A DNA stretch of 50,600 nucleotides from Verrucomicrobiota bacterium (GTDB lineage: Bacteria; Verrucomicrobiota; Verrucomicrobiia; Opitutales; Opitutaceae): assembly GCA_026398135.1 (NCBI GenBank), contig JAPLTN010000081.1, forward strand, positions 1 to 50,600. The letters are read 5' to 3'. The notes beneath the pieces were generated by a model. That model saw only the letters and a program-made list of their open reading frames with translations, had not been told where the DNA came from and did not search any database. Below are positions 23,503 to 39,816 of the stretch, one piece after another. The first letter of the stretch is position 1. The number at the start of each line of letters is the position of its first letter. The position numbers and the translations under genes were made by a program.

Positions 23503-23523
23503 GCTCGTTCCCAACCAATCGCG

Positions 23524-23554
23524 AAAGGCCGCCCCTCAACGGGCGGCCTTTTTT
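23524..23554 (+). terminator. Intrinsic terminator after rpoC
   Basis: AAAGGCCGCCC (23524-23534) and GGGCGGCCTTT (23541-23551) form a perfect 11-bp stem with loop CTCAAC, running into six T. This ends the rplKAJL-rpoBC transcription unit. Confidence 0.92.
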
Positions 23555-23752
23555 AGCGTTCCAAAGGTCAATGACTCACTTGTAAGCTTAAGCTGAATAC
23601 GAAATTCACCTCTGAAAAGCAGCCTTTTTTAGGTGTGAGTCAAATATCGCTTGCCTTGCGTCTGCGTCCACTGATTGGATAACCAATTCATCGAAACTTC
23701 CCGCCGGCTCTCTCATCCGGCTGTAGTATCGAACCCTCAAATACCACTGCCT

Positions 23753-23782
23753 TTGGCCTCTGGCGAAAGGTGGCCGGATAAA
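23753..23782 (+). promoter_or_regulatory. Weak promoter candidate for the rpsL unit
   Basis: TTGGCC (23753-23758) and GATAAA (23777-23782) are 18 bp apart and each match four of six consensus bases. A start a few bases downstream would put the long hairpin at the very 5' end of the transcript. The match is weak. Confidence 0.25.
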
Positions 23783-23785
23783 ATT

Positions 23786-23831
23786 TGCGATTCTAGGAAA
23801 TTTCGCTTGCACCGAATTTCTCAGAATCGCA
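23786..23831 (+). promoter_or_regulatory. Long hairpin in the rpsL leader
   Basis: TGCGATTCT (23786-23794) pairs perfectly with AGAATCGCA (23823-23831). The stem extends inward by about five more pairs (AGGAA with TTTCT) past one bulged C. It ends 42 bp before the rpsL ATG, has no T-run, and is a good candidate for an mRNA autoregulatory structure of the str operon. Confidence 0.5.
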
Positions 23832-23873
23832 GGTTTGTCGTCTTTTCCCTATTTCCCAGCGTTTTTAATCGTC

Positions 23874-24257
23874 ATGCCTACCATCAATCAACTCGTGCGC
23901 AAAGGCCGTCGCCAGGTGCGCGCCAAGTCCAAGTCCCCCGCCCTGGACAACAATCCGTTCCGCCGTGGCGTCTGCGTGCAGGTCATGACCCGCACCCCCA
24001 AGAAGCCCAATTCCGCCATCCGTAAGGTCGCCAAGGTGCGCCTCACGAACGGCAATGAGGTTATCTCCTACATTCCCGATGAAGGCCATAACCTTCAAGA
24101 GCACTCAATCGTCCTCGTGCGCGGCGGCCGCGTGAAGGACTTGCCTGGTGTTCGTTACCACATCGTTCGCGGCACTTTGGACGCCACCGGCGTCGAAAAG
24201 CGTCGTCGCTCCCGCTCCAAGTACGGCGTTAAGCGCCCCAAGGCAGCCAAGAAGTAA
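23874..24257 (+). CDS. rpsL: Ribosomal protein S12
   Basis: The 127-residue decoding-centre protein begins [20 protein letters not shown]. It has [16 protein letters not shown] (the Lys at the position changed in streptomycin resistance is present) and [19 protein letters not shown], the loop carrying the methylthiolated Asp in other bacteria. I use the ATG at 23874; an upstream in-frame start adds 13 residues not found in S12. Confidence 0.98.
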
Positions 24258-24293
24258 CTCGTTCCTCACCATAGCCCTTAAGCACTTTAAAAA

Positions 24294-24767
24294 ATGTCAC
24301 GCCGTCACCGCGCCACTAAGCGTCAGGCCACCCCCGATTCCCGCTACAGCAGCGTCCTTGTTGCCCACTTGGTCAACGTGGTCATGCAGTCGGGCAAAAA
24401 GAATCTCGCTGAACGTATCGTTTACGGTGCTTTCGAGAAAGTCTCCGAGAAGCTGCAAAAGGGCGACCCCGTTGATCTCTTGATCGGTGCTTTGGAAAAC
24501 GCCCGCCCCCGCCTCGAAGTGAAGAGCCGCCGCGTCGGTGGTGCCACTTATCAGGTTCCAATCGAAATTTCCTACGAGCGCCAAGAGTCCCTCGCGCTTC
24601 GCTGGATCGTGACTGCTGCCGCCGGCCGTAAGGGTCTGCCGATGAAGGACGCCCTCGCCGCTGAAATCGTCGATGCCTATAACAACACCGGCAACGTGGT
24701 GAAGAAGAAGGAAGATACCCACAAGATGGCCCAGGCCAATCGCGCCTTTGCTCACCTTCGCTGGTAA
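24294..24767 (+). CDS. rpsG: Ribosomal protein S7
   Basis: The 157-residue primary binding protein of the 30S head has the N-terminal [11 protein letters not shown], then [19 protein letters not shown] and the beta-hairpin [14 protein letters not shown] (near 79-92). The C-terminus is [20 protein letters not shown]. It lies 36 bp after rpsL and 38 bp before fusA. Confidence 0.98.
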
Positions 24768-24805
24768 TCTCTGACCGCACCTGCTCTCCCTCGACTCCCG
24801 CGACT

Positions 24806-26992
24806 ATGTCCGACGAATCTCCAGTAATCACCATCGTTACCGATAAGGCGAAAATCTCGCCCGCCAACTCCAAGGATCGTCCGTTTCCCTTGGAATGGAC
24901 GCGTAACATCGGCATCGCCGCTCACATCGACGCCGGCAAGACGACCACCTCCGAGCGCATTCTCTTTTATTCCGGTGCCGTCCATAAGATGGGTGAAGTG
25001 CATGAAGGCACCGCCGTCACCGACTGGATGGAGCAGGAGCGCGAGCGTGGTATCACGATCACCGCTGCCGCCATTTCTTGTGCCTGGAACGCTTCCTGTG
25101 GTCCATGGAAGGGTATCAAGCAGCGCATCAACATCATCGACACTCCCGGACACGTTGACTTTACCGCCGAGGTCGAACGCTCCATGCGTGTTCTCGACGG
25201 TGCCGTTGCCGTATTCTGCGCCGTAGCCGGAGTCCAGCCCCAGTCCGAAACCGTTTGGCGCCAAGCCAATAAGTATGGCGTTCCCCGCGTTGCTTTCATC
25301 AACAAGATGGACCGCACCGGCGCTAATTTCTTCCGCGCCATCGACGAGATGCGCGAGAAGCTAAAGGCCAACGCCCACCCGCTCTTTATTCCTATCGGTA
25401 ACGAAGAGAACTTCGTTGGCGTGGTCGATCTGGTCCAAGAGATCGCCTACATGTTCGAGGATCCCCTCAACATGGATCTCGATCCCAAACAGCATCCGAT
25501 TCCCGAAAACCTGGTCGCCCAGACCAAGGAATACCGCGAGAAGCTGATCGAGGCCGTTTCCGACTTCGATGATGTCTTGGCCGAACGCTATTTGAACGGC
25601 GAAACCATCTTAGCTCCCGAGCTCATGGTGGCCGTGCGTAAAGCCACGGTTTCGATGAAGTTCACCGGTGTTATTCCCGGTTCGGCTTTCAAGAAAAAGG
25701 GCGTGCAGCGTCTCTTGGATTGCGTCGTCAACTACCTGCCTTGCCCGCTCGACCTGCCTCCCATGATGGGGCATAACAGCGATGGCGAACTCGTTGGCAT
25801 CAAGCCTGATGACAAAGCCAAGCTCGCCGGTCTCGCGTTCAAACTTTGGACCGACCCGTTCGTCGGCAAGCTCGTTTTTTTCCGCGTTTACACCGGTGCC
25901 TTGCACAAGGGCACCCCGGTTTACAATCCCCGCACTCGTCGCTCGGAGCGCGTTTCCCGTCTCGTGCTCATGCGCGCCATGGACCGCGAAGAGATCGACA
26001 TCGCTTACTCTGGCGACATCTGCGCCATGGTGGGCGTTAAGGAGGTCATCACCGGTGACACGCTCTGCCATGAGGATGCCGACATCCGCCTCGAGCCGCC
26101 TTCCTTCCCCGAGCCTGTTATCTCGATGTCCATCGAGCCAAACAGCAAGGCTGACCAAGAGAAGCTCGGTATGGCGCTGCAGCGTTTAGTTGCCGAAGAT
26201 CCTACTCTCCGCGTTAAGACGGATCAAGACACCGGCCAGACGATTCTCTCCGGCATGGGCGAGCTTCACCTCGAAATCATCGTCGATCGCATGAAGCGTG
26301 AGTTCAAGGTCGAGGCGACCTCCGGTAAGCCCCAAATCGCTTATCGCGAAACCATCACCATGTCCGCTGAGGGCGAAGGCAAATTCGTCCGTCAGTCCGG
26401 TGGTAAGGGTCAATACGGCCACGTCGTCGTCACCATCGAGCCCAACGAAAAAGGCAAGGGCATCGAAGTTATCAACGAGACGGTCGGTGGTTCCATTCCT
26501 AAGGAATTTATCAAGCCTTCCACCGATGGCATCAACGAAGCCGCCAACAACGGCGTCGTCGCCGGCTTCCCGGTCGTTGACGCGATTGTTCGCATCAAGG
26601 ACGGTTCCTTCCACGAGGTCGACTCGTCAGAAATGGCCTTCAAGATGGCGGGTATCTTCGCGTTCAAGGACGCCATGAAGAATGCCAAGCCCATCTTGCT
26701 CGAACCCATCATGGGTGTCGAAGTGACCACTCCGGAAGAGTATCAAGGCGACTTGATTGGCGACGTAAATCGTCGTCGCGGCACCATCCAAGGCATGGAA
26801 AACAAGAACGGCGCTTGTATCATCAGCGCGGCCGTTCCTCTGGAAAACCTTTTCGGCTACGTGACGGACATCCGCTCGCTCTCCAAGGGCCGCGCCTCCG
26901 CCTCGATTACGCCATCTCATTTCGAGCAGGTTCCTAACCAGCTTCTCGCTAAGATTGTGGAGACCAACGCCAAGGGTCCCGCTCGTACCTAA
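24806..26992 (+). CDS. fusA: Elongation factor G
   Basis: The translocation GTPase has 728 residues. It carries G1 [19 protein letters not shown] (about 38-56), the switch region [17 protein letters not shown]3 DTPGHVDF and G4 NKMD, and the domain IV/V motifs [19 protein letters not shown] and SPSH-type [10 protein letters not shown]. An N-terminal extension of about 20 residues precedes the usual RNIGI start. The G domain has a small insertion in [20 protein letters not shown], seen in a subset of bacterial EF-Gs. Confidence 0.98.
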
Positions 26993-27011
26993 ACCTTCGT
27001 TCTTTTCTGCC

Positions 27012-27320
27012 ATGAAAGGCCAAAAAATCCGCATTCGTCTCAAGGGCTATGACTATCGTGTCATCGATCAGTCTGCCTTGGAGATCGTTGAGACCGCGAA
27101 GCGCTCCGGCGCCCGCGTCTCTGGTCCCGTTCCGCTCCCGACTCACATCGAGAAGCTGACCGTCAACCGTTCCCCGCACGTGGACAAGAAGTCCATGGAG
27201 CAGTTCGAGAGCCGCACCCACAAGCGCCTCATCGACATCATCGAGCCCACCGCCCAGACCGTGGACGAGCTGAAGAAGCTCAACCTCCCGTCCGGCGTGG
27301 ACATCACCATCAACGTGTAA
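27012..27320 (+). CDS. rpsJ: Ribosomal protein S10
   Basis: The 102-residue protein begins [19 protein letters not shown] and contains [20 protein letters not shown] (the loop near 38-57) and [13 protein letters not shown]10 also acts as NusE in antitermination. Start codon ATG at 27012 lies 19 bp after the fusA stop, so the str and S10 operons are continuous here. Confidence 0.98.
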
Positions 27321-27378
27321 GTTACGAGTCGTCGTATACTCACCACCTAGCCTTTTCAGTCCAACAGTTTAGCGCCAT

Positions 27379-27438
27379 CCGGTGACTTTCACCGGAAACG
27401 TTAATGTAGGTCTCACGAAACGGAAACCCTCCACCTAC
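27379..27438 (+). promoter_or_regulatory. Two short hairpins in the rpsJ-rplC spacer
   Basis: CCGGTGA-CTT-TCACCGG (27379-27395) is a perfect 7-bp stem. GTAGGT (27406-27411) and ACCTAC (27433-27438) can form a second 6-bp stem, ending 9 bp before rplC. The 127-bp spacer is long for this cluster and could be a regulatory site for the genes from rplC onward. Function not known. Confidence 0.4.
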
Positions 27439-27447
27439 CGCTTAGCC

Positions 27448-28098
27448 ATGATCAAGACCCTTATAGGTAAAAAGATCGGGATGACGCAGGTCTATGACGC
27501 TCAAAACGTCCTCGTCCCCGTCACCGTAGTCGAAGCCGGACCCAATTCTGTGGTCCAGGTCAAGACCCTCGAAATCGACGGTTACAATGCCGTCCAGCTC
27601 GGCTTCTCGGCCCAAAAAGCCAAGAATGCCTCCAAGGCTGAACTCAACCACGCCAAAAAGGCCGGTCTCGAGTATGCCCCCCGTGTCCTCAGCGAGGTTC
27701 GCCTTGCCGAGACCCCTACCCAGAAGGCTGGTGACGTCGTCACCGTCGAGGCCTTTAAAGAAGGCCAGCTCGTTGATATCACTGGTATCACCAAGGGCAA
27801 AGGCTTCGCGGGTGTGGTTAAACGCTTCCGTGTCGCCGGCGGTCCCGCCACGCACGGTTCGATGTTCCATCGCCGCATCGGCTCGGTCGGCATGCGCCAG
27901 ACCCCCGGCCGCGTGTGGAAGAACCAGGCCATGCCTGGCCACATGGGCCAAGTGAAGCGCACCCTTCAGAACCTCACCGTGGTGAAGATCGTTGCCGACA
28001 AGAATCTCATCCTCGTCAAGGGAGCTATCCCTGGCGCCAACGGCGACGACGTCATCGTCCGCACCGCCATCAAGGGTCAGCCCAAGGGCGCCAAGTAA
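27448..28098 (+). CDS. rplC: Ribosomal protein L3
   Basis: The 216-residue protein begins MIKTLIGKKIGMTQVYD. The long rRNA-probing loop follows: KGKGFAGVVKRF, then GPATHGSMFHRRIGSVGM and GRVWKNQAMPGHMG (about residues 115-165), which reaches the peptidyl-transferase centre. The Gln methylated by PrmB in other bacteria (GxxxGxQ region) is not clearly present. Start ATG at 27448 matches the family; the longer frame includes the leader hairpins. Confidence 0.98.
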   Translation: MIKTLIGKKIGMTQVYDAQNVLVPVTVVEAGPNSVVQVKTLEIDGYNAVQLGFSAQKAKNASKAELNHAKKAGLEYAPRVLSEVRLAETPTQKAGDVVTVEAFKEGQLVDITGITKGKGFAGVVKRFRVAGGPATHGSMFHRRIGSVGMRQTPGRVWKNQAMPGHMGQVKRTLQNLTVVKIVADKNLILVKGAIPGANGDDVIVRTAIKGQPKGAK

Positions 28099-28113
28099 AG
28101 GAGAACGCCACCC

Positions 28114-28749
28114 ATGAAACTCAAAGTTTACAGCGCCGACGGTAAAACCTCCCGCGAGCAAGACTTCGCCGATATTCCTCAATTCGAGGGAGATCGCGGT
28201 GTCCAAGCCCTCAAGGAAGTGATCGTCGCCATCAACGCAAACGCCCGTCTCGGCACCCATTCCACGAAAACCCGTGGCGAAGTGTCCGGCGGCGGCAAAA
28301 AGCCCTGGCGCCAAAAGGGCACCGGACGCGCCCGCGCCGGCTCCATACGCTCCCCCCTGTGGGTCGGCGGTGGTGTCGTCTTCGGCCCCAAGCCCCGCGA
28401 CTACAACAAGAAGATCAACACCCAGGTTAAGTCGCTGGCCTTCTCCCGTGCTCTCTTTGATCGCGCCGTCGCCGGCGAGATCGATGTCATCGAGGCCTGG
28501 AGCGTCGCCCAGCCCAAGACCAAGTTGATCAACGAAGTCATCGGTCGCATCGCGCCTTCCGGCAAGATCTTGATCGTTGACGACACCTTCACCGTCGAGG
28601 CCGCCCAGGCCGCCCGGAATATCGCCCGCGTTTCTCTGCAAGAGGCCGCCAAGCTCAATTCCAAGGATCTCGCGCAATATAAGCGCATCATCGTCAGCAC
28701 CAAGGGTCTCGAAAAGATCATCGCCCGCGTCAATGGAGGTAAGAACTAA
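28114..28749 (+). CDS. rplD: Ribosomal protein L4
   Basis: The 211-residue protein carries the exit-tunnel loop TKTRGEVSGGGKKPWRQKGT then GRARAGSIRSPLWVGGG (about 50-87). The C-terminal alpha/beta domain in other bacteria represses the S10 operon. AAGGAG lies upstream of the start, and the stop overlaps the rplW start as TAATG. Confidence 0.98.
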   Translation: MKLKVYSADGKTSREQDFADIPQFEGDRGVQALKEVIVAINANARLGTHSTKTRGEVSGGGKKPWRQKGTGRARAGSIRSPLWVGGGVVFGPKPRDYNKKINTQVKSLAFSRALFDRAVAGEIDVIEAWSVAQPKTKLINEVIGRIAPSGKILIVDDTFTVEAAQAARNIARVSLQEAAKLNSKDLAQYKRIIVSTKGLEKIIARVNGGKN

Positions 28750-29030
28750 TGAACGCCCTCGCCGTCCTCAAACAAGTCCGTCTCACGGAGAAGGCTAGCG
28801 GCCTCTCCGCCGATCTCGGTCAATATACCTTCGAGGTAGCCACCAAGGCCACCAAGCACCAGATCGCCGCCGCCGTCGAAAAGACCTTCAAGGTCAGCGT
28901 CGTCCGCGTGAACACCCAAACCATCGCGGGCAAGCCCAAGCGCACCCGTTCCGGCCGCCCCACGACCACTTCTGTCATCAAGAAGGCCATCGTGACGCTC
29001 AAGGCCGGTGACAAGATCGAGCTCGTCTGA
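28749..29030 (+). CDS. rplW: Ribosomal protein L23
   Basis: The 93-residue exit-site protein binds trigger factor and SRP. Recognisable segments are VRLTEKASGLSADLGQYTFEV, NTQTIAGKPKRTRSGRPT and KKAIVTLKAGDKIEL. It is translationally coupled to rplD and followed by rplB after 33 bp. Confidence 0.96.
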   Translation: MNALAVLKQVRLTEKASGLSADLGQYTFEVATKATKHQIAAAVEKTFKVSVVRVNTQTIAGKPKRTRSGRPTTTSVIKKAIVTLKAGDKIELV

Positions 29031-29063
29031 GCCTGATCACCACCAACTAAGGAACCACCCAAC

Positions 29064-29930
29064 ATGGCTCTCAAATCCTTCCGTCCCCTCACTCCTTCGC
29101 TGCGCTTCACCGTGCTGAACAAGGATGAGTCCATCACCGACAAACGCCCGGAACGGTCCCTGACCTACTCCCAGCCCAAGTCTGGCGGCCGTAACAACAA
29201 CGGTCGCGTCACCAGCCGCCGTCGTGGCGGCGGTCACAAGCGCCTCCATCGCATCGTCGATTTCAAGCGCGCCCTTCTCGATGTTCCCGCCACCGTGCAG
29301 GCCATCGAGTACGATCCCAATCGTTCCGCCCGTCTGGCCCTGATCACCTATACCAATGGTGACAAGGCCTACATCATCGCCGCCAACGGCATGAAGATCG
29401 GCGACACCGTGGTGACCTCTAACAAAGCCACCACCAACGATTTCATCGTCGGTAACAACTTCCCTCTCGAGATCATTCCCCCTTCCACCAAGCTGCATTG
29501 CGTGGAGCTGATCCCTGGTCGCGGCGCTCAGTTGGGCCGCACCGCCGGCACCTCGATCGAGCTCATCGCCGTCGAAAACGGCGTGGCCCAGCTCAAGATG
29601 CCTTCCGGCGAAATCCGTTTGGTCAACCCCAAGTGCCGCGCCACCATCGGTGAAGTCGGCAATGGCGACCACATGAACAAGTCGCTCGGCAAGGCCGGTC
29701 GTAACCGCTGGCTCGGCAAGCGCCCACGTCAACGTGGTGTCACCATGAATCCCGTCGATCACCCCAACGGTGGTGGTCAGGGTAAATCCAAGGGTGGTGG
29801 CGGTCGCCAACATCTCGTGTCCCCCTGGGGCCAGCTCGCGAAGGGTTTCCCCACTCGCAAACGTTCGAAGCCCTCGAACAGCCAAATCCTCGTTCGCCAC
29901 AACGGCCGCAAGCCACGCGGCAAGAAGTAA
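29064..29930 (+). CDS. rplB: Ribosomal protein L2
   Basis: The 288-residue protein includes the N-terminal KSFRPLTPSLRF and the rRNA-binding core GRNNNGRVTSRRRGGGHKR. Its C-terminal signature GVTMNPVDHPNGGG holds the conserved His near the peptidyl-transferase centre; the residue after HP is Asn instead of the more common His. It is slightly longer than the E. coli protein (273). Confidence 0.98.
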   Translation: MALKSFRPLTPSLRFTVLNKDESITDKRPERSLTYSQPKSGGRNNNGRVTSRRRGGGHKRLHRIVDFKRALLDVPATVQAIEYDPNRSARLALITYTNGDKAYIIAANGMKIGDTVVTSNKATTNDFIVGNNFPLEIIPPSTKLHCVELIPGRGAQLGRTAGTSIELIAVENGVAQLKMPSGEIRLVNPKCRATIGEVGNGDHMNKSLGKAGRNRWLGKRPRQRGVTMNPVDHPNGGGQGKSKGGGGRQHLVSPWGQLAKGFPTRKRSKPSNSQILVRHNGRKPRGKK

Positions 29931-29948
29931 CCTTACCGCACTCCTACC

Positions 29949-30224
29949 ATGGCCCGCTCCATCAAAAAAGGCTTCTTCGTCGATTATCACCTGCTCGAGA
30001 AGATCGAGAAGTCTGTCGCGACGAAGAACAAGAAGCCCATTCAAACCTGGTCCCGTCGTTCGACCATCACTCCCGATTTTATCGGCCACACGTTTAACGT
30101 ACACAACGGCAAGGCTTTCGTTGCCGTTTATGTCACCGAAAACATGGTCGGTCACAAGCTCGGCGAGTTTTCGCCCACCCGCGTGTTCAAGGCGCACGGT
30201 GGTATGACCCGCAAGGAAATCTAA
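29949..30224 (+). CDS. rpsS: Ribosomal protein S19
   Basis: The 91-residue 30S head protein begins [19 protein letters not shown]. It carries [20 protein letters not shown] and ends in [16 protein letters not shown]. In nearly all bacteria the next gene is rplV; here an unrelated exported protein gene starts 26 bp downstream. Confidence 0.98.
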
Positions 30225-30250
30225 GTTTCTGGCGTACCTGTTCTTTGCCA

Positions 30251-30598
30251 ATGTCTTCGTCAGTATTTCGGCTTATTTCCGTCGTCTCCGTTGCGCTTCT
30301 GCTCAACGGCACGGCGATGGCCGAAATCACGGTCGAACGCTCCGTTGGCCAAGCACAGATCAGCCATATCGCTCAATTGCCTGCTACCGATCTCGTTATC
30401 CTTGATAACGGCTTTGAGGCAGGCTTACGGCAAGGTATGGTTTGTTCGGTTTTTCGCTCCGGCGAAAATTTAGGTCAGCTTTTATTGGTTGATCTTCGTG
30501 ACCGAAATGCCAGCGCTCTCATCTTGGACCTCACTCCCGGCCTCAGTCTTCAAATCGGAGACACTGTGGCCGTCAAAACTGTTTCAGCTCGAAAATAA
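30251..30598 (+). CDS. Small exported protein of unknown function inserted in the S10 operon
   Basis: From the ATG at 30251 the 115-residue product has a textbook signal peptide (MSSSVFRLISVVSVALLLNG followed by TAMA, cleavage near residue 24). The mature part is a compact beta-rich domain with DLVILDNGFEAGLRQGMVCS, FRSGENLGQLLLVDLRDRN and LSLQIGDTVAVK. This G(x)R.G...V.R....G.l.v pattern resembles the C-terminal SH3-like domain of FlgT-type proteins. No ribosomal protein family fits. Codon use is less biased than in its neighbours (more TTA, CTT and T-ending codons). It lies in line with rpsS (26 bp) and rplV (71 bp), so it is very likely co-transcribed. Confidence 0.75.
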   Translation: MSSSVFRLISVVSVALLLNGTAMAEITVERSVGQAQISHIAQLPATDLVILDNGFEAGLRQGMVCSVFRSGENLGQLLLVDLRDRNASALILDLTPGLSLQIGDTVAVKTVSARK

Positions 30599-30611
30599 AC
30601 TACACTAAAAG

Positions 30612-30645
30612 GACAGGGCAGGGGACTCGTTCCCCGGCTGCTGTC
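30612..30645 (+). promoter_or_regulatory. Bulged hairpin upstream of rplV
   Basis: GACAG (30612-30616) and CAG/GGGA pair with TCCC, CTG and CTGTC (ending 30645), with GG on each side unpaired and loop CTCGT. No T-run follows. It lies between the inserted gene and rplV and may adjust translation or mRNA processing at this junction. Confidence 0.4.
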
Positions 30646-30669
30646 GCCTCTAAAAAGGAATCTCATCCC

Positions 30670-31011
30670 ATGGAAGTCATCGCAATCACCCGCAACGCTC
30701 GCATGTCCCCTAAAAAGGTCCGCGAAGTCGTTCGCACCATCACTGGTCGCCCCGCCGTCGCGGCGTCCGAGTATCTCGCGCTCATCCCGCGTAAGTCTGC
30801 TCAGCTCATTAACAAGACGCTCAAGAGCGCCATCGCCAACGCCGAGAACAACAACAATCTCTCGTCGGACAGCCTCTTCGTTAAGACCGCCTACGTCGAT
30901 CAAGGTCCGGTCTTGAAGCGCTTCAAGGCCGCCGCGCGCGGCACCGCCGCCCCCCGCCGCAAGAAGCAGAGCCACATCACCGTCGTCCTCTCTGACGGCC
31001 AAACCAACTAA
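30670..31011 (+). CDS. rplV: Ribosomal protein L22
   Basis: The 113-residue exit-tunnel protein has [38 protein letters not shown] and the tunnel beta-hairpin region [20 protein letters not shown] (about 82-101). All segments expected of L22 are present. It lies 11 bp before rpsC. Confidence 0.97.
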
Positions 31012-31022
31012 GACTTACCACC

Positions 31023-31655
31023 ATGGGCCAAAAAACCAATCCCACCGGCTTTCGTCTCGCCGTCCGTCGCAACTGGCAGTCCCGCTGGTATGCTACCAAG
31101 AAGGACTTCGCCAAACTGCTCCTTGAGGACCAGCTGATCCGCAGCACCCTGATGGAGAAGCTCAAGGCTGCCTCCGTGCCAAAGATCTTCATCGAGCGCG
31201 CTTCTAACCGCGTTCGCGTCAAGATTTACACCGCCCGTCCCGGTATCGTCATCGGCCGCAAGGGCGCCGAAGTCGAAATCATAAAGGCCGACCTCGCCAA
31301 ACTCACCGGCAAGGAAGTGCTGCTCGACATCCAAGAGATCAAGAAGCCTGAAATCGAGGCCGGTCTCGTTGCCGAGAACGTAGCACTCCAGCTTGAGCGC
31401 CGCATCGCTTTCCGTCGTGCCATGAAAAAAGCCGTCGAAACCGCCATGAGCCTCGGCGCTGAAGGTATTCGTATCCAATGCTCGGGTCGTCTCGGCGGCT
31501 CCGACATCGCTCGCCGCGAGTGGCAGCGCAAGGGCCGCGTGCCCCTGCACACCCTCCGCGAGAACATCGACTACGGCTTCTTCGAGGCCAAGACCCTTTA
31601 CGGCAAGATCGGCGTCAAGTGCTGGATCCTGAAGAAAGAAGAGACCGCCGCCTAA
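31023..31655 (+). CDS. rpsC: Ribosomal protein S3
   Basis: The 210-residue protein begins [18 protein letters not shown]. It holds a KH domain with [15 protein letters not shown] (near 75-90) and the C-terminal signature [19 protein letters not shown]. The end [16 protein letters not shown] is typical. It forms part of the mRNA entry tunnel. Confidence 0.98.
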
Positions 31656-31709
31656 GCGACCTCTTTCACCCGTCCACCACCACCAATCTTATAAAAGGAG
31701 AAAACCATC

Positions 31710-32132
31710 ATGGCTCTCGCTCCCGCCCGCACCAAATACCGCAAGTCCCAAAAGGGATCCCTCGCTGGCAATGCCAAGCGCGGTAACACCCTCGCTTTCG
31801 GTGAATTCGGTCTTCAATCCCTCACTCGTGGCCCTATGACCGGCCGCCAGATCGAGGCCGCCCGCGTCACCATTGCCCGCCACCTCAAGCGCAAGGGCAA
31901 ACTCTGGATCCGCGTATTCCCCCACAAGCCCGTTACCAAGAAACCAGCCGAAGTTCGAATGGGTTCCGGTAAAGGCGCGGTTGAATACTACGTCGCCCAA
32001 GTCAAACCCGGCCTCATCCTTTTTGAGCTCGCCGGCATTCCCGCCACCATCGCCAAAGAGGCGTTCCGCCTCGCCGACGCCAAGCTGCCCTTCAAGTGCC
32101 GCTTCATCGTCCGCGAAGGCACCGCTGCCTAA
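31710..32132 (+). CDS. rplP: Ribosomal protein L16
   Basis: The 140-residue protein begins [18 protein letters not shown]. It carries the conserved [20 protein letters not shown] and [17 protein letters not shown] (the loop near the A site). A perfect AAAGGAG site precedes the ATG by 9 bp. Confidence 0.98.
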
Positions 32133-32153
32133 TTTAACCCGGAGAACCTTAAT

Positions 32154-32342
32154 ATGACCGCCAAAGAAATCCGCGACCTCTCCGCGGCTGAAATCACCGC
32201 CAAACTCAACGAGACCCGCGAAAAGCTCCTCTCCCTCCGCCTGCGCAAGCAGACCGGCCAGGTCGAGAAGACCCACGAGCTCCGCTCGCTCCGCAAGGAC
32301 ATCGCCCGCCTCGAAACCGTAAAGACCCAGAAGGCCGCCTAA
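32154..32342 (+). CDS. rpmC: Ribosomal protein L29
   Basis: The 62-residue two-helix protein has the family motifs [20 protein letters not shown] and [20 protein letters not shown] followed by [12 protein letters not shown] lies about 9 bp upstream of the start. It is positioned between rplP and rpsQ as usual. Confidence 0.96.
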
Positions 32343-32368
32343 AGCGCCTTACACCGAGGAAAATCAAC

Positions 32369-32686
32369 ATGTCCACTCCCGCCCGCAATAATCGCAAAAC
32401 CCTTATTGGTAACGTCACCAGCCGCTCTGGTGACAAATCCATCAAGGTGACCGTGCCCTTCAAGGTTCCGCATCCCCGCTACCAGAAGGTCATCAACCGC
32501 AAGACCGTTGTGCACGTTCACGACGAGAAGAACGAGACCCACCTTGGCGACAAGGTTGAGATCATGGAGACCCGCCCGATCAGCCGCCTCAAGCGCTGGC
32601 GCGTGATCAACGTGCTCGAGCGCGCCATCATCGCTGATGTCGCCGCCGTCTCCGAGGCCGATGTGGCCGCCGCCATCAAGGCTTAA
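32369..32686 (+). CDS. rpsQ: Ribosomal protein S17, with a C-terminal extension
   Basis: The S17 core (about residues 9-85) is clear: KTLIGNVTSRSGDKSIKVTV, HPRYQKVINRKTVVHVHDE and GDKVEIMETRPISRLKRWRV. At 105 residues it is about 20 longer than the E. coli protein. The extra part is an Ala-rich tail (ADVAAVSEADVAAAIKA). Confidence 0.96.
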   Translation: MSTPARNNRKTLIGNVTSRSGDKSIKVTVPFKVPHPRYQKVINRKTVVHVHDEKNETHLGDKVEIMETRPISRLKRWRVINVLERAIIADVAAVSEADVAAAIKA

Positions 32687-32704
32687 TTCAGGAGAACCCA
32701 GACC

Positions 32705-33070
32705 ATGATCCAACTCCGCTCCATTCTCGAAGTCGCTGACAACACCGGTGCCCGCAAGGCCGCCATGATCAGCAAAAAAGGCCAGAACACCACCACGGCC
32801 GGCGTCGGTGACATCATCACCGTCCACATCAAAGACTCCGGCACCGAAGCCACCGTTAAAAAAGGTGAAGTCGCCAAGGCCGTCGTTGTTCGCACCAAGG
32901 CTCCCGTCCGCCGCGCGGATGGTTCCTACCTGCGCTTTGATTCCAACGCCATCGTCATCATCGGTGCCGACGGCAATCCCAAGGGCACCCGCATCTTCGG
33001 CCCCGTCGCCCGCGAACTGCGCGCGAAGAACTTCATGAAGATCATCTCGCTCGCCCCGGAGGTCCTCTAA
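32705..33070 (+). CDS. rplN: Ribosomal protein L14
   Basis: The 121-residue protein begins [19 protein letters not shown]. It carries [32 protein letters not shown] and the C-terminal [26 protein letters not shown] lies 9-10 bp before the ATG. The stop is followed one base later by the rplX start. Confidence 0.98.
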
Positions 33071-33071
33071 C

Positions 33072-33344
33072 ATGCCCACTCCCTTCCATATCAAACGCAA
33101 CGACGAGGTCGTCGTCATCGCCGGTTCCCACAAGGGCAAGTCCGGCAAGGTTCTTGAGCTGCTCGCCGCCAAATCGCGCGTCCGCGTCGAAGGCGTCGGC
33201 ATGATCAAGCGCCACCTCAAGAAGTCGCAGGAGAATCCGAACGGCGCGATCGTTGAGCGCGAAGGTTCGATCCACGCTTCCAACCTCCAGCTCAAGAGCC
33301 GTTTCGATGCTTCCAAGAAGCGCGCGGCCGTTTCCAAAGCCTGA
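33072..33344 (+). CDS. rplX: Ribosomal protein L24
   Basis: The 90-residue protein contains the KOW motif NDEVVVIAGSHKGKSGKVLE (residues 9-28) and VEGVGMIKRHLKKSQENPNG, then IVEREGSIHASNLQL. It is coupled to rplN with a one-base gap. A terminator-like hairpin follows, which is unusual inside an spc operon. Confidence 0.97.
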   Translation: MPTPFHIKRNDEVVVIAGSHKGKSGKVLELLAAKSRVRVEGVGMIKRHLKKSQENPNGAIVEREGSIHASNLQLKSRFDASKKRAAVSKA

Positions 33345-33364
33345 TTTTATATTAAGTGCTTGCT

Positions 33365-33400
33365 AGGGGCGGGGTGCCTTCGCGTAACCTCGCCCCTTTT
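33365..33400 (+). terminator. Terminator or attenuator between rplX and rplE
   Basis: AGGGGCGGGG (33365-33374) pairs with CCTCGCCCCT (33388-33397), 10 bp with one G-U pair and a 13-nt loop, running into TTTT. Together with the 131-bp rplX-rplE spacer this suggests partial termination inside the spc operon. Confidence 0.7.
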
Positions 33401-33475
33401 CGTCCCTCTCTTCCTCCCTAATTCTAAAACACTCAAGGTCGTCGGTTCGGCAATCCGGCGGTAACACCATCCAAA

Positions 33476-34075
33476 ATGAGCACCAAACGCACTCCCTTCC
33501 TTAAGCAGCATTACTACGAGCAAATCGTTCCAGCCCTGGTTAAGTCCCGTGGCTACAAAAACAAGCACGAAGTACCCAAGTTGACCAAGATCAGCCTCAA
33601 CACCGGCATCGACGCCGAGGCCGACAAAAACCAAATCTCTGACATTCAGCGCGATCTCTCCGCGATTGCCGGTCAAAAAGCCGTTTTGGCCAAGTCCAAG
33701 AAGGCAATTTCCAATTTCAAACTTCGCCAGGGTCAATTCGTTGGCGCGCACGTCACCCTCCGCGGTGATGCGATGTGGGAGTTCCTCTACCGCCTCATCG
33801 CGGTTGCCTTGCCCACCATCCGCGACTTCCGCGGCGTTCACTCCAAGCTCGATGGTCAAGGCAACTATGCCCTTGGTATCAACGACTTCACCATTTTCCC
33901 CGAGATCGTGGTTGAAAACGTCAAGAAGACCATGGGCCTCGACATCAACATCGTCACTTCGGCTGAATCTGACGAAGAAGGTCGCGAGTTGCTCAAGCTC
34001 CTCGGTATGCCCTTCCGTCGCACCGAGGCCCAGCAGGCCGCCGATGCGGCCGCCAAGGCCACCGCCGCCGCCTAA
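33476..34075 (+). CDS. rplE: Ribosomal protein L5
   Basis: The 199-residue 5S rRNA-binding protein has LVKSRGYKNKHEVPKLTKIS, AVLAKSKKAISNFKLRQGQ, GAHVTLRGDAMWEFLYRLI and the C-terminal DINIVTSAESDEEGRELLKL. It ends in an Ala-rich tail beyond the usual LGMPF. A palindromic heptamer element begins 2 bp after its stop. Confidence 0.97.
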   Translation: MSTKRTPFLKQHYYEQIVPALVKSRGYKNKHEVPKLTKISLNTGIDAEADKNQISDIQRDLSAIAGQKAVLAKSKKAISNFKLRQGQFVGAHVTLRGDAMWEFLYRLIAVALPTIRDFRGVHSKLDGQGNYALGINDFTIFPEIVVENVKKTMGLDINIVTSAESDEEGRELLKLLGMPFRRTEAQQAADAAAKATAAA

Positions 34076-34077
34076 TT

Positions 34078-34179
34078 ATTTATCATCTATGATTTGTGAT
34101 TTATGATTGCTCCGGCACTCGCAAATCACGCCGAGCAAACGGCTCTCCAATCATAAATCATTAATTTTAAATCATAAAT
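34078..34179. repeat. Inverted heptamer array, copy A (rplE-rpsN spacer)
   Basis: Each arm is ATT plus four 7-bp units plus G. The left arm (34078-34109) has units TATCATC, TATGATT, TGTGATT and TATGATT. The right arm (34148-34179), read on the minus strand, has TATGATT, TAAAATT, AATGATT and TATGATT. The arms match at 26 of 32 positions and enclose 38 bp of GC-richer DNA. It fills the spacer almost completely, ending 8 bp before the rpsN start. Confidence 0.75.
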
Positions 34180-34187
34180 TTCCCGCC

Positions 34188-34493
34188 ATGCCCAAGACCT
34201 CCGCCATCAACCGCAACGAAAAACGCAAAGCGCTCGTTGCCAAGTTCGCCGCCAAACGCGCCGAGCTCAAGGCCGCTCTGATCAACCCGAACGCGACCAA
34301 CGAAGAGTTTTTCGCCGCCTCGAAAGCGTTGCAGAAGCTGCCTAAGAACTCCTCGCCCATCCGCGTGCGCAATCGTTGCAACCTTTCCGGTCGTCCTCGT
34401 GCGTTCATCCGCAAGTTCGGCGTTTCCCGTATTACTTTCCGCGAGCTTGCTCTCAACGGCAAGATTCCCGGCGTTACCAAGTCCTCTTGGTAA
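34188..34493 (+). CDS. rpsN: Ribosomal protein S14 (zinc-free long form)
   Basis: The 101-residue protein has [20 protein letters not shown] and the C-terminal [20 protein letters not shown] with [15 protein letters not shown]. It lacks the CxxC...CxxC ligands of the short form and so needs no zinc. Start ATG at 34188 is used because the upstream extension runs through the heptamer element. Confidence 0.97.
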
Positions 34494-34514
34494 ACTTTTC
34501 CGCCCACGGGGGTT

Positions 34515-34534
34515 AATCCTGCGCAAGCAGGATT
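34515..34534 (+). promoter_or_regulatory. GCAA-capped hairpin between rpsN and rpsH
   Basis: AATCCTGC (34515-34522) and GCAGGATT (34527-34534) form a perfect 8-bp stem closed by the GNRA tetraloop GCAA. It is 44 bp before rpsH and has no T-run. A stable tetraloop hairpin in front of the S8 gene is a candidate autoregulatory or processing element. Confidence 0.5.
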
Positions 34535-34578
34535 GGATATGACCCGCGCGGCTGCCTAAACCTAAACATCCAAGAAAC

Positions 34579-34971
34579 ATGACAGATCCCGTCAGCGATT
34601 TCCTCACCCGCCTGCGCAATGCTGCGCGCGCCGGTTTGGCCGAGTGTGTCTCGCCACACTCCAACCTCAAGGAGAGCCTCGCGGTTATCCTTAAGAACGA
34701 AGGCTACGTCTCCGAAGTCTCCACCGGCGCCGACAAACTCGGTCACAAAACCGTCGTCGTGAAGATGAAGTACGTGGATAACGCCCCCGCGTTTACCAAC
34801 CTTTCCCGCGTCTCGACCCCAGGTCGTCGCCTCTATGTCGGCTACTCCGACATCCCCCGCGTGCTTAACGGCCTCGGTATCGCCATCCTCTCGACATCCA
34901 AGGGTTTGAAGAAGGATCAAGACTGCCGCCGCGAAAAGCTGGGTGGCGAGTATGTTTGCAACGTTTGGTAA
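34579..34971 (+). CDS. rpsH: Ribosomal protein S8
   Basis: The 130-residue 30S assembly protein begins MTDPVSDFLTRLRNAARAGL. It contains RVSTPGRRLYVGYSDIPRVL and ends in the rRNA-binding signature GIAILSTSKGLKKDQDCRRE with GGEYVCNVW. S8 represses the spc operon in E. coli. Confidence 0.98.
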   Translation: MTDPVSDFLTRLRNAARAGLAECVSPHSNLKESLAVILKNEGYVSEVSTGADKLGHKTVVVKMKYVDNAPAFTNLSRVSTPGRRLYVGYSDIPRVLNGLGIAILSTSKGLKKDQDCRREKLGGEYVCNVW

Positions 34972-34986
34972 CCCGGAGCCACCCAC

Positions 34987-35379
34987 ATGTCACGCGTAGG
35001 CAAAATCCCCGTAATCATTCCCGCCAAGGTCAAGGTGGACATCAAAAACACCACGGTCTCGGTCGAGGGACCCAAGGGCAAGGTCTCCCGCACCTTTGCT
35101 CCGGTCGTTTCCATCACCCAGGCTGATTCCAAAGTGAGCGTCGCTCCCTTGGAAGACTCCCGCTTTTCCCGCGCCATGTTCGGCACCGCTCGTTCGGTGA
35201 TCGCCGGCATGGTCAAGGGAGCATCCGACGGCTTCGTCAAGGATCTCGAAATCCAGGGCGTCGGCTTCAAAGCCGCGCTCAAGGGCAAGCAACTCGACCT
35301 CGCGTTGGGTTACTCGCACCCCATCCTGTTCGATATTCCAGAAGGGATCAAAATCACCGTCACTCTTCCATTACACTAA
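34987..35379 (+). CDS. rplF: Ribosomal protein L6, C-terminally truncated
   Basis: The first 130 residues align well with L6: MSRVGKIPVIIPAKVKVDI, TVSVEGPKGKVSRTF, FGTARSVIAGMVKGASDGF and EIQGVGFKAALKGKQLDLAL with GYSHPILFDIPEGIKITVT. The frame then ends in LPLH and a TAA. A normal L6 has about 177 residues; the second half of domain 2, including the GQVAA..R...PEPYKGKGI signature, is missing. Only 23 bp separate the stop from rplR, so the segment is deleted, not shifted into another frame. Confidence 0.93.
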   Translation: MSRVGKIPVIIPAKVKVDIKNTTVSVEGPKGKVSRTFAPVVSITQADSKVSVAPLEDSRFSRAMFGTARSVIAGMVKGASDGFVKDLEIQGVGFKAALKGKQLDLALGYSHPILFDIPEGIKITVTLPLH

Positions 35380-35402
35380 CTTTTACCAAGGCCGCTTAAG
35401 CC

Positions 35403-35765
35403 ATGAACACTATCCGCAAAGCCGATCTCCTTCAGAAGCGCCGCTGGCGCATTCGCAAAAAGGTGTTTGGCACCTCCGCCCGCCCCCGCCTCGCCGTCAA
35501 GTTCTCCTCCAAGCATATCTATGCCCAGGCTGTGAACGACGACACCGGCACCACCCTCGTATTCCTCTCCAGCCTCGACGCCGACCTGCGCAAGCAGAAG
35601 CTCGCCGCCAATCTCGCCGGTGCCAAGGCCCTCGGCGAGTCGTTTGCCGCCAAGGCCAAGGCCGCTGGCATCGAGTCGGTCGTATTTGACCGCTCGGGCG
35701 CTCTTTATCACGGCAAGGTCAAAGCCTTTGCCGAGGCCGCTCGCGCCGGTGGTCTTACCTTCTAA
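35403..35765 (+). CDS. rplR: Ribosomal protein L18
   Basis: The 120-residue 5S rRNA-binding protein includes KRRWRIRKKVFGTSARPRLA, VKFSSKHIYAQAVND, and the C-terminal VVFDRSGALYHGKVKAFAEA and AARAGGLTF. It is complete and intact, which argues against a sequencing problem extending from the shortened rplF into it. Confidence 0.97.
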   Translation: MNTIRKADLLQKRRWRIRKKVFGTSARPRLAVKFSSKHIYAQAVNDDTGTTLVFLSSLDADLRKQKLAANLAGAKALGESFAAKAKAAGIESVVFDRSGALYHGKVKAFAEAARAGGLTF

Positions 35766-35774
35766 TCCTTACAA

Positions 35775-36332
35775 ATGAGCATTCCCACTCCTCCCGCCGG
35801 CGGCAACAATGAGGGCCGTCCTCCCCGTGGCCCCCGCGGCCCCCGTCGCGATAACCGTGACCAGCAGAAGGATGATTCCGGCCTCTTCGAAAAGGTCGTT
35901 TTCATCAACCGCTGCGCCAAGGTCGTTAAGGGCGGTCGTCGCTTCTCCTTCGCCGCCATCGCGGTCGTCGGTGATCGCGCCGGCAAGATCGGTGTCGGCT
36001 ATGGCCGCGCCAACGAAGTTCCCGACGCCATCAAGAAGTCCACCGAAGGTGCCAAGAAGCACATGTTCTCCGTCAAGCTCAAGGGTGACACCATCCCCCA
36101 TGAGGTTTTCGGAACCTTCGACGGCGGCAAAGTCCTCCTGAAGCCCGCCACCACCGGTACCGGCCTCATCGCCGGTGGCGCGGTGCGCGCCGTGCTTGAA
36201 GCCGCCGGCGTCAAGAACGTGCTTACCAAGTCCATGGGCAGCAGCAATCACATCGCGGTGGTCAACGCCACGGTAGCCGCTCTCCTTCAGCTCAAGACCG
36301 CAGAAGACTACGCCAACGCCCGCAAGGCCTGA
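35775..36332 (+). CDS. rpsE: Ribosomal protein S5
   Basis: The 185-residue protein has an Arg/Gly/Pro-rich extension of about 35 residues, then the S5 core: [40 protein letters not shown] and [21 protein letters not shown]30 (rpmD), usually next, is absent; rplO follows after 78 bp. Confidence 0.97.
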
Positions 36333-36360
36333 GCTTCTCTGCACAAATAATAATCCGAGT

Positions 36361-36386
36361 CCCGGCCGAATCTAATATCGGTCGGG
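36361..36386 (+). promoter_or_regulatory. Hairpin in the rpsE-rplO spacer
   Basis: CCCGGCCGA (36361-36369) pairs with TCGGTCGGG (36378-36386), 9 bp with one G-U pair and an 8-nt AT-rich loop. There is no T-run. It occupies the place where rpmD is found in other bacteria and precedes rplO by 24 bp. Confidence 0.4.
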
Positions 36387-36410
36387 GCGCATTCCTTAGG
36401 AAAATCAGTC

Positions 36411-36860
36411 ATGAAATTACACGAACTTAAGAACGTTAAAGGCGCGATTCATCGCAAGAAGCGCGTCGGTTGCGGCGAAGGTGGCGGCCACGGCAAGACC
36501 TCCGGTCGCGGTGGCAAGGGCCAGACCGCCCGCTCCGGCAGCTCTATCCGCCCCGGCTTCGAAGGCGGCCAGATGCCCCTTTATCGTAAGCTCCCCCATC
36601 GCGGTTTTAATAACTACAACTTCCGCGTCGAGTTTCCGGTCGTCAATGTCAGCGATCTCGCTGCTTTGGATGCCTCTATCGCCGAGATCAACGTCACCGT
36701 TTTGGTTGACGCGGGTTTGATCCGTGGTGGCTCCAAGGCCGTCAAGGTTTTGGGCAACGGCGAAATCACCCGCGCGATCAAGGTCACGGCGGCCAAGTTC
36801 TCCGAATCCGCCAAGGCCAAGATCGAGGCAGCCGGTGGCCAGGCCATCATCGCCGCCTAA
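36411..36860 (+). CDS. rplO: Ribosomal protein L15
   Basis: The 149-residue protein begins MKLHELKNVKGAIHRKKRVG. It has the Gly-rich rRNA-binding region GKTSGRGGKGQTARSGSSIR, then FEGGQMPLYRKLPHRGFNN and the C-terminal KVTAAKFSESAKAKIEAAGG. All are typical of L15. Confidence 0.97.
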   Translation: MKLHELKNVKGAIHRKKRVGCGEGGGHGKTSGRGGKGQTARSGSSIRPGFEGGQMPLYRKLPHRGFNNYNFRVEFPVVNVSDLAALDASIAEINVTVLVDAGLIRGGSKAVKVLGNGEITRAIKVTAAKFSESAKAKIEAAGGQAIIAA

Positions 36861-36914
36861 GCGCGCCGCGTCCATGTCGCGAATCGGTCACGAATCTGTG
36901 ACTTGACGCCTTCC

Positions 36915-36959
36915 ATGGGCGGGTGAGCGCCTCAAAGCGCCCCCGCCCATTTCCGTTTT
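36915..36959 (+). terminator. Terminator or attenuator between rplO and secY
   Basis: ATGGGCGGG (36915-36923) pairs with CCCGCCCAT (36942-36950), and GCGC (36927-36930) with GCGC (36937-36940), around loop CTCAAA. TTCCGTTTT follows. It would reduce secY expression relative to the ribosomal protein genes. Confidence 0.75.
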
Positions 36960-36982
36960 CCGACCACTATCCTTTTCCCACC

Positions 36983-38485
36983 GTGTTCTCCGCCTTTACC
37001 AATTCACTAAAGATTCCCGAGCTTCGCTCCCGTATCTTTTACACCCTTGCGCTTCTCTTTGTGGCCCGCGTCGGTGCGCACATCCCGCTGCCCGGTCTTG
37101 ATCCCAAGCCCTTGCAGGACTTTTTCGCCGCCAATGTGGCTGGCGCCGGCGGCGCAGTCGTCGGGTTGTACAATATGTTCACCGGCGGCGCGCTTTTGAA
37201 AGGTGCCGTCTTTGCGCTGGGTATCATGCCCTTTATTAGCGCATCCATCATTTTCCAGCTCATGAGCGCCGTGGTGCCCGCGCTGAGCCGGCTCCAGCAG
37301 GAAGGCGACGTTGGACGTCAGAAACTGACCCAATACACCCGCTACGCCACGGTCATCATCTGTTTGATTCAAGGCGCACTCCTTATTCTCACCTTGGAAA
37401 ATCCCCAGCGTTTGTTCCAAGGCTACGATGTAAACACCTACGGAGCCATCGTGATAGCGAATCATACGACTTTTTTGCTGACCTCGGTGATTTTCCTCAC
37501 CGCCGGCACGATGGTACTTATGTGGTTGGGTGAACAAATCACCGCTCGCGGCATCGGCAATGGCACGTCTCTCCTGATTACGGTCGGTATTTTGGCTGAT
37601 ATTCCCGGTGCGATGCAGACCCTCTGGACCTTGATTAATCCCGCCGTTGGCGTGAAGGGCCTCGGAGCACCTCAGTTGATCGTCATGCTCGTGCTTTTCC
37701 TAGTCGTCACCATGGGGTTGATCGCGGTCGTGCAGGGCCAGCGCAAAATCCCCGTCCAATACGCCAAGCGCGTGGTGGGTAACAAAGTCATGGGCGGCCA
37801 GAATTCCTTCCTGCCCCTCAAGGTAAATTACTCGGGCGTCATGCCGGTGATTTTCGCCAGCGCCATTCTGCTCTTTCCCCAGCAAATATTCTCCCAGATC
37901 GGCGCGGCCTTTAACATGCCTTTCCTGGTCGAATTCTCGAACAACCTGCTTCGCGGACACTGGACTTACTACGCCATCATGGCGTTCCTGATTCTCTTCT
38001 TCAGCTACTTCTGGGTCTCCGTGATGTTTAAGCCCATTCAGATTGCTGACGATTTGAAGAAGTATGGCGGCTACATTCCCGGTGTTCGTCCCGGCGAGCC
38101 CACCGCTCAGTTCTTGGATTTCGTGATGACGCGCCTCACTTTGGCCGGTGCGATTTTCCTGACTCTGATCGCCGTCATGCCCGACATTTTGTTGTATGAA
38201 CTGAATGTTCCCCAGCGTATCGCGATTTTCTTCGGCGGCACGGGCATGTTGATCACGGTTGGCGTGATTTTGGATACCATGAAACAGGTCGAAACCTTCC
38301 TTCTGCAACGTCACTACGACGGCTTCCTCAAAAAAGGACGCATCCGTGCCCGCAGCGGAAATGTCGCCACCGCGCTGAACGAAGCCGCTGACATGCAGAC
38401 GGTTGGCAAGCTCTGGCTCGTCCTCGGCACGATCTTCGCCATCGGTATCGCGGCCTGGGCGGTAAAGTATTTTCAAGCTAGCTAA
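36983..38485 (+). CDS. secY: Protein translocase subunit SecY
   Basis: The 500-residue protein has the expected ten membrane helices. Landmarks are IPELRSRIFYTLALLFVARV, HIPLPGLDP, the conserved MPFISASIIFQLMS, GEQITARGIGNGTSLLI and the cytoplasmic loops GGQNSFLPLKVNYSGVMPVI and GYIPGVRPGEPTA. I choose the GTG at 36983, since an earlier in-frame GTG (36923) lies inside the terminator stem. An inserted or longer loop after helix 1 makes the protein somewhat larger than E. coli SecY (443). Confidence 0.96.
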   Translation: MFSAFTNSLKIPELRSRIFYTLALLFVARVGAHIPLPGLDPKPLQDFFAANVAGAGGAVVGLYNMFTGGALLKGAVFALGIMPFISASIIFQLMSAVVPALSRLQQEGDVGRQKLTQYTRYATVIICLIQGALLILTLENPQRLFQGYDVNTYGAIVIANHTTFLLTSVIFLTAGTMVLMWLGEQITARGIGNGTSLLITVGILADIPGAMQTLWTLINPAVGVKGLGAPQLIVMLVLFLVVTMGLIAVVQGQRKIPVQYAKRVVGNKVMGGQNSFLPLKVNYSGVMPVIFASAILLFPQQIFSQIGAAFNMPFLVEFSNNLLRGHWTYYAIMAFLILFFSYFWVSVMFKPIQIADDLKKYGGYIPGVRPGEPTAQFLDFVMTRLTLAGAIFLTLIAVMPDILLYELNVPQRIAIFFGGTGMLITVGVILDTMKQVETFLLQRHYDGFLKKGRIRARSGNVATALNEAADMQTVGKLWLVLGTIFAIGIAAWAVKYFQAS

Positions 38486-38509
38486 AAAAGCTGCTTTACA
38501 GGCCGGTTC

Positions 38510-38986
38510 GTGTCTGATTCGTCTCCAAACCCTTTTCTCATCGCGAGTCACCGCTCCGCAAAGCTGGTGTTCCTCGATTTGAAAAATGACCTGTCCCCGG
38601 ACTGGTCAAACCACCTTCGTTCTTTGCACATTGAGCACGTCTCTCCCGGCACTCTGATAAGCCAGGAGATTTGTCGCCGCTCGCCCCTCGGCCAAACCGC
38701 CGGGCTGGCGCAGCAGCGCGGGACACCCGTCCCCGCCGAAACTATCGTCGCGCTGATGCGACGCTGGTTTATGGCGCGCAAACCCGATGCGGGATTCGCC
38801 CTTACCGGCTTCCCGGCTACGTTGCTCCAAGCCCGTATCCTCGATGAGTGGCTCGACGCCCGAGACGAAAGTCTCGATGCCGTCGTTCCTGTCTCCGGCG
38901 CTGCCGAGACTCCACTCACCGATTACTACCGCGTCCACGGTCTGTTGCATGAGGCAACGGCCGAGGCCTCCGTCTCCCGCTTATGA
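38510..38986 (+). CDS. Degenerate adenylate-kinase-like protein without P-loop
   Basis: The 158-residue protein sits in the position of adk (secY-adk-map) and can be aligned with adenylate kinase from the AMP-binding region onward. LHIEHVSPGTLISQEICRR matches the IPQISTGDMLR region, SPLGQTAGLAQQRGTPVPAE matches the ELGKQAK..GKLV segment, and FALTGFPATLLQARILDEWL matches FLLDGFPRT..QA. The Gly-rich P-loop (GxPGxGKGT) is replaced by KLVFLDLKNDL, the Arg of GFPRT is Ala, and the LID and C-terminal ATP-binding part are absent. Catalysis is therefore unlikely. Start is GTG; the stop overlaps the map start (ATGA). Confidence 0.72.
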   Translation: MSDSSPNPFLIASHRSAKLVFLDLKNDLSPDWSNHLRSLHIEHVSPGTLISQEICRRSPLGQTAGLAQQRGTPVPAETIVALMRRWFMARKPDAGFALTGFPATLLQARILDEWLDARDESLDAVVPVSGAAETPLTDYYRVHGLLHEATAEASVSRL

Positions 38987-39753: not shown

Positions 39754-39816
39754 TTTTCAGCCCCACCACTTTCCGTCAGATTTCCACTACAACTCCCAAC
39801 CTAAACCACTACCACT

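Follow-up and report, generated by a model that had tools for sequence, protein, structure and literature searches.

The window analysed here, 50,600 nt of a contig from an Opitutaceae genome (order Opitutales, class Verrucomicrobiia, phylum Verrucomicrobiota), contains a third gene, here called gene X, between rpsS and rplV (Table 1). Few gene pairs in bacteria are as stable as rpsS-rplV, whose two members normally touch. The translation genes of the window were named by position. Gene X was an intact ORF of 115 codons with an ATG start, separated from rpsS by 26 bp and from rplV by 71 bp. The first-pass annotation had marked this 348-bp ORF with exact coordinates; its span stopped short of a 63-nt RNA element lying 3' of X. 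A scan of 29900-31100 for sigma-70-like promoters found none, which says little because shuffled sequences gave just 0.4 on average. A terminator scan of 29900-31100 returned 3 sites against 1.6 expected, and the X-rplV spacer held none.

Table 1. Features of the rpsS-X-rplV region, in window positions.
Feature	Position	Strand	Basis
rpsS (uS19), upstream neighbour	29949..30224	+	named from sequence and position
gene X, predicted exported single-barrel protein, 115 aa, S10-operon resident	30251..30598	+	ORF, homologues, model, codon use, dN/dS
predicted signal peptide of X, about residues 1-24, A-M-A before E25	30251..30322	+	sequence heuristic
predicted FlgT-C/MreC-like beta barrel of X, about residues 31-110	30341..30580	+	AlphaFold2 model and fold searches
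candidate Opitutaceae rplV leader RNA element (model R1)	30607..30669	+	alignment, covariation, RNA-model searches
R1 stem P1	30612-30619 pairing 30637-30645, one bulged base	+	RNA model R1
R1 hairpin 2	30647-30649 pairing 30656-30658	+	RNA model R1
likely rplV Shine-Dalgarno AGGA, 3' strand of hairpin 2	30656..30659	+	sequence
rplV (uL22), downstream neighbour	30670..31011	+	named from sequence and position; rplV profile match

Thirty-eight genomes, including that of the window, yielded 17 strong matches to X (E<=5.3e-10). All 17 were intact ORFs between rpsS and rplV, which marks X as no mere chance ORF, and the TAA inside one homologue (L014) was the ORF's own stop. Within the genus of the window, 12 of 15 genomes had a strong match and the remaining three had weak matches only. 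Altogether, 126 rpsS-rplV junctions were read in the order: 60 contained X (11 families) and 66 did not. The 76 distinct Opitutaceae junctions comprised 28 with X and 48 without. One carrier of X with a complete genome is Verrucomicrobia bacterium IMCC26134 (CP011265). Junctions from outside Opitutaceae were one to a few per genus, drawn from the best-scoring rplV matches among the 249 genomes of the order that had one, and the second copy of one genome (L032) was excluded from the counts; the samples were not random, and the shares are not frequency estimates. Twenty Opitutaceae genomes had no profile match at E<=1e-6, and 13 of these had a junction that was read as lacking X; three others (G173, G199 and G265) had only weak, paralogue-like matches near 1e-7.

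The X-rplV spacer measured 65-130 nt in Opitutaceae and 3-28 nt in the 32 X-bearing junctions of the other families of the order, where such short distances suggest that both genes lie on one transcript. Where X was missing, the Opitutaceae gap was 13-37 nt in 20 of the 48 junctions and 53-218 nt in the other 28; outside the family, 11 of 18 gaps were 3-21 nt and two were negative (-336 and -10). A Shine-Dalgarno-like triplet preceded X in 10 of 60 junctions and rplV in 29 of 60, as raw counts without a chance control. Paralogues located elsewhere in the genome were seen at three Opitutaceae loci (L020, L029 and L030); these proteins of ~250-280 aa consisted of an N-terminal anchor, a coiled coil and the same barrel. 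A match in the window's own genome (G000:C28:10816-10911, E 0.19) is perhaps another.

Searching with a profile built from the order's 60 short forms brought up longer proteins elsewhere in the class, and all 23 inspected class loci outside the order had the gene in the same rpsS-rplV slot. In total, this long form occupied 51 of 93 class junctions (24 families). These junctions were made up of the 23 profile-hit loci (23/23 with the gene) and 70 loci found through rplV (28/70 with the gene), the latter deliberately enriched for genomes without a profile hit. Gaps in the junctions without the long form were 1-43 nt in 39 of 42 cases, and 148, 313 and 552 nt in the others; the 552-nt gap (L200) held an unrelated 127-aa ORF. 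Short and long forms matched each other over the barrel in a profile-profile comparison (probability 99.1, E 4.7e-19, 86 columns). Each of the 59 short forms other than that of the window hit the long-form profile (E 7.5e-10 at worst), and each of the 51 long forms hit the short-form profile (1.2e-6 at worst). Lengths in the order and class ranged from 105 to 293 aa. Three loci titled as Akkermansia muciniphila MAGs (L263, L264 and L279) had rplV 79-94% identical to that of the window, and these organism labels look wrong.

In other classes of the phylum, 18 of 20 inspected profile hits immediately preceded rplV, and in 14 of these 18 rpsS was detected further upstream; the other two were paralogues elsewhere. 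Eighty genomes, hand-picked and including known profile hits, were also entered through rplV. The gene was present in 76 of them and 70 of the junctions were read; X was the gene immediately before rplV in 27 of these (profile E<=1.2e-4). In 26 of these 27 cases no rpsS was found within the 1.5-2.4 kb examined upstream, where other genes were present. In seven loci (L412, L416, L417, L420, L427, L435 and L442) the S10 gene run was broken before X, and X headed the rplV run. The genes upstream of X differed, with names assigned by eye: tatA/tatC-like in L427 and topA-like in L412 and L442. Two loci of another class (L357 and L360, family f84) carried tandem pairs of related coiled-coil barrel proteins, and no ribosomal genes were detected around them.

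A tree built from four ribosomal proteins covered 237 loci, 129 with X and 108 without. Parsimony on this tree required a minimum of 18 changes of X state, and a loss-only model required 30 separate X-minus clades, the largest with 27, 13 and 10 members; the root state was biased to presence because 18 non-class tree rows had been picked as hits. So many losses mean that operon and cell alike can do without X. Across nine hand-picked pairs, dN/dS was 0.16-0.37 for X and 0-0.064 for rpsS and rplV. X is thus under purifying selection, yet it is far freer to change than its two neighbours. A recent insertion had been suggested for X, and a pseudogene pattern in close relatives had been named as a sign of passive insertion; both are rejected by the same-slot homologues in Opitutales, elsewhere in Verrucomicrobiia and in part of Verrucomicrobiota, and by dN/dS. 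Synteny in Opitutaceae and in the wider Verrucomicrobiota, which the first-pass annotation had proposed to examine, showed X in this slot in many of the junctions read and its absence from many others. The best reading of these data is that X has resided in the S10 operon from an early stage of Verrucomicrobiota evolution onwards and has been lost many times.

CT421.2, described in PMC3444138 as a PVC signature protein of about 53 to >80 aa found in all sequenced PVC species, resembles X in being restricted to a lineage, here one of related phyla, and in having no assigned function. Identity of X with CT421.2 was rejected on size (105-293 aa for X) and on distribution, X often being absent.

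The N-terminus of X contained a hydrophobic run (12-residue Kyte-Doolittle mean 2.4) with a basic residue before it and A-M-A after it, and this heuristic supports the earlier call of a signal-peptide protein. A hydrophobic N-terminal segment was present at a cut-off of 1.6 in 59/60 short forms, 43/51 long forms and 1/22 control translation proteins; at a cut-off of 1.2 the counts were 59/60, 45/51 and 5/22. A crude lipobox pattern occurred in 3/60 short and 3/51 long forms, some perhaps by chance. Codon use was, as had been noted, less biased than that of the surrounding genes. Codon adaptation to the translation genes of the window was 0.34 for X, below all 22 translation genes tested (0.55-0.76, leave-one-out), and GC3 was 0.50 for X compared with 0.75 for those genes.

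An AlphaFold2 model of X had block-mean pLDDT values of 91-98 across residues 31-110. The two top PDB rows for this model were 8z5n (LPHT ring; Z 11.4, 76 residues, 17% identity), whose matched chain we take to be FlgT, and 3w1e (FlgT; Z 10.9), both with rmsd of 1.9-2.0 (2.0 for 8z5n). The earlier guess of a FlgT C-terminal type of domain is therefore supported at the level of fold. The N-terminal barrels of F1/V1-ATPase scored nearly level with FlgT (Z about 10), and Foldseek, which returned nothing at E<=0.001 with the X model (best E 1.2e-3), also placed MreC high. The predicted barrel is thus a generic fold, common to other barrel families. In a model of the long form, the same single barrel came after helices that we interpret as a coiled coil.

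Sequence comparisons placed X in none of these families. The window protein had no Pfam match at E<=10, and so matched neither FlgT_C (PF16538) nor MreC (PF04085). FlgT_C matched 1/60 short forms (E 0.037) and 17/51 long forms at E<=0.1 (best 6.2e-5), below the Pfam cut-off; the bit score, given for the first long-form member only, was 14.3 against a cut-off of 27. MreC matched one of the 60 short forms at E 0.13, again short of the Pfam cut-off, and gave weak matches in 2/51 long forms with Pfam (best 0.0023) and 7/51 with NCBIfam (best 7.7e-6). A PDB sequence search with the short-form profile returned just two chance-level matches (E 0.82 and 0.91). As the window protein matched no family and the other members gave weak matches at best, X is described as at most a FlgT-C/MreC-like barrel and is filed in neither family. 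FlgT is an exported protein, and its C-terminal domain has the barrel fold predicted for X; X lacks the remainder of FlgT, and its locus is not flagellar. The order of anchor, coiled coil and barrel in MreC recurs in the long form of X. MreC has two barrels, whereas the models of both the short and the long form have one. X as a substitute MreC was rejected, a separate MreC being present in 68 of 71 Opitutaceae genomes, with and without X.

The X-rplV spacers of Opitutaceae contained a conserved RNA element just 5' of rplV. Among the 76 distinct junctions of the family, the element was present in all 28 with X and in 23 of the 48 without X. A regular expression found it in 68 of 80 named loci (46/48 with an X hit and 22/32 without), and in the two X-bearing loci that were missed (L291 and L304) a variant was visible by eye. 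The two-hairpin structure was paired in 94.8% of cells over 90 distinct sequences, in an alignment (A3) that omits L014, L094 and L318 for their long inserts and in which 12 of 90 rows, misaligned at hairpin 2, count as unpaired. Covariation was 0.356 compared with 0.186 for shuffles, with 0 of 500 reaching the observed value, and did not exceed 0.126 when the structure was slid; related sequences may exceed shuffles even without a structure. Column pairs 8/51, 13/45 and 57/90 changed on both sides in 34, 25 and 33 sequences, respectively. One of five measures, further pair types, did not stand out (16 against 15.2 expected; 191/500 shuffles). Folding energy alone gave weak support, with z of -0.84 to -3.74 over ten sequences and -1.35 for the window, where 19 of 200 shuffles were as stable.

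An RNA-model search of the 71 Opitutaceae genomes gave matches in 45 at E<=0.05, 41 of them strong (E<=2.1e-8) and with a single strong copy in each genome; the search was not exhaustive, as it missed two genomes (G318 and G010) in which the element was visible. All 40 strong matches with a known rplV position lay 10-25 nt before the rplV profile match, and the 41st genome had no rplV match. Across 273 order genomes, the strongest match outside Opitutaceae was G231:C120:2794-2866 (family f16, E 9.7e-7) and the next had E 7.5e-5. A dispersed repeat was rejected on the single match in the window's own genome. Rfam gave nothing at the gathering threshold over 22000-40000 and two sub-threshold matches over 30225-30720 (E 0.23 and 1), taken as chance.

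The element has the hallmark of a ribosomal-protein leader, a covarying structure 5' of a ribosomal-protein gene. Since it is kept in many genomes without X, it is read as a control of rplV; most likely it regulates rplV translation and is separate from the function of X. It is a candidate in its own right for a new class of ribosomal-protein leader. The L4-controlled S10 leader, an autogenous ribosomal-protein leader according to PMC10578931, likewise places conserved RNA structure immediately ahead of a gene for a ribosomal protein. The Opitutaceae element differs from it in lying mid-operon, before rplV, and in having no Rfam match. Literature judged mainly by titles and abstract openings held no recognised description of gene X or of an rplV leader.

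For X itself we favour, at a probability of about one half, an exported and dispensable adaptor that is made from the S10 transcript, so that its supply is tied to ribosome synthesis. The protein would be translated from that transcript and exported by Sec to the periplasm. In the proposed scheme the long form runs from a signal or anchor segment through a coiled coil to a single FlgT-C/MreC-like barrel, and the Opitutales form, including X of the window, would have been cut down to signal peptide and barrel. The barrel would probably act as a small periplasmic structural adaptor, by analogy with MreC and FlgT. If X is carried on the S10 transcript, its supply should rise and fall with growth rate and ribosome synthesis; its yield may be held low by its weaker codon usage and perhaps also by less efficient initiation. 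A protein that is useful but dispensable would be kept under purifying selection yet frequently lost. A precedent for a non-ribosomal gene within a ribosomal operon is secY in the spc operon. Like secY, X is a membrane- or export-related gene that would be transcribed with ribosomal genes; unlike SecY, the X protein is itself predicted to be secreted, is poorly conserved and is dispensable.

The strongest rival is that X is a passive passenger with an ordinary envelope function, its place in the operon being a frozen accident without regulatory meaning. Frequent clean loss and poor codon adaptation fit such a passenger, and we regard it as possible though on the doubtful side. Set against it, a gene that is so readily lost still holds its slot throughout the class and further. 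Relocation was not seen: 13 of the Opitutaceae genomes without a profile match had a junction without X, and three others gave only the weak, paralogue-like matches. Outside the class, X stayed at rplV in the 26 cases where rpsS was not found upstream, though this adjacency may reflect one ancestral event, a single split. Such persistence in the operon, like the purifying selection on X, agrees with a functional reason for the location.

Alternatively, translation or secretion of X could act in cis on rplV...secY, as SecM does on secA, and X would then be an export-sensing leader. Four points speak for this possibility, to which we give only a slim chance: the N-terminus is of export type, X immediately precedes rplV in the junctions that contain it, the gene run also includes a secY-like ORF (36923-38485; name assigned from sequence and position), and the Opitutaceae RNA structure includes the rplV Shine-Dalgarno. 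A search for a SecM-like arrest tail showed none, the C-terminal tail being no more conserved than the domain (2.1-2.3 bits in the last 10 columns compared with 2.3-2.4 in the barrel). The 3-28-nt spacers of the other families are too short for such a structure, and the Opitutaceae element is kept in junctions without X. A related proposal makes X a dedicated envelope factor that would let the state of the envelope, or the capacity for export, influence secY and the distal ribosomal genes in cis; in Opitutaceae the RNA element, which includes the rplV start region, would have taken over this role. This is likewise a long shot. That X is instead a cytoplasmic, ribosome-associated protein is suggested by its operon neighbours only and is hardly credible given the hydrophobic export-type N-termini of nearly all members, to which the few crude lipobox patterns, some perhaps chance, may be added.

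On the adaptor reading, an exported protein encoded in the main ribosome operon over much of the phylum would be an unusual case tying the envelope to ribosome production. The patchy loss of X offers natural comparisons. Two genomes of family f40 (L238 and L242; 0.9 Mb, one contig) were without X and a 2.5-Mb relative (L226) keeps it, a possible loss with genome reduction.
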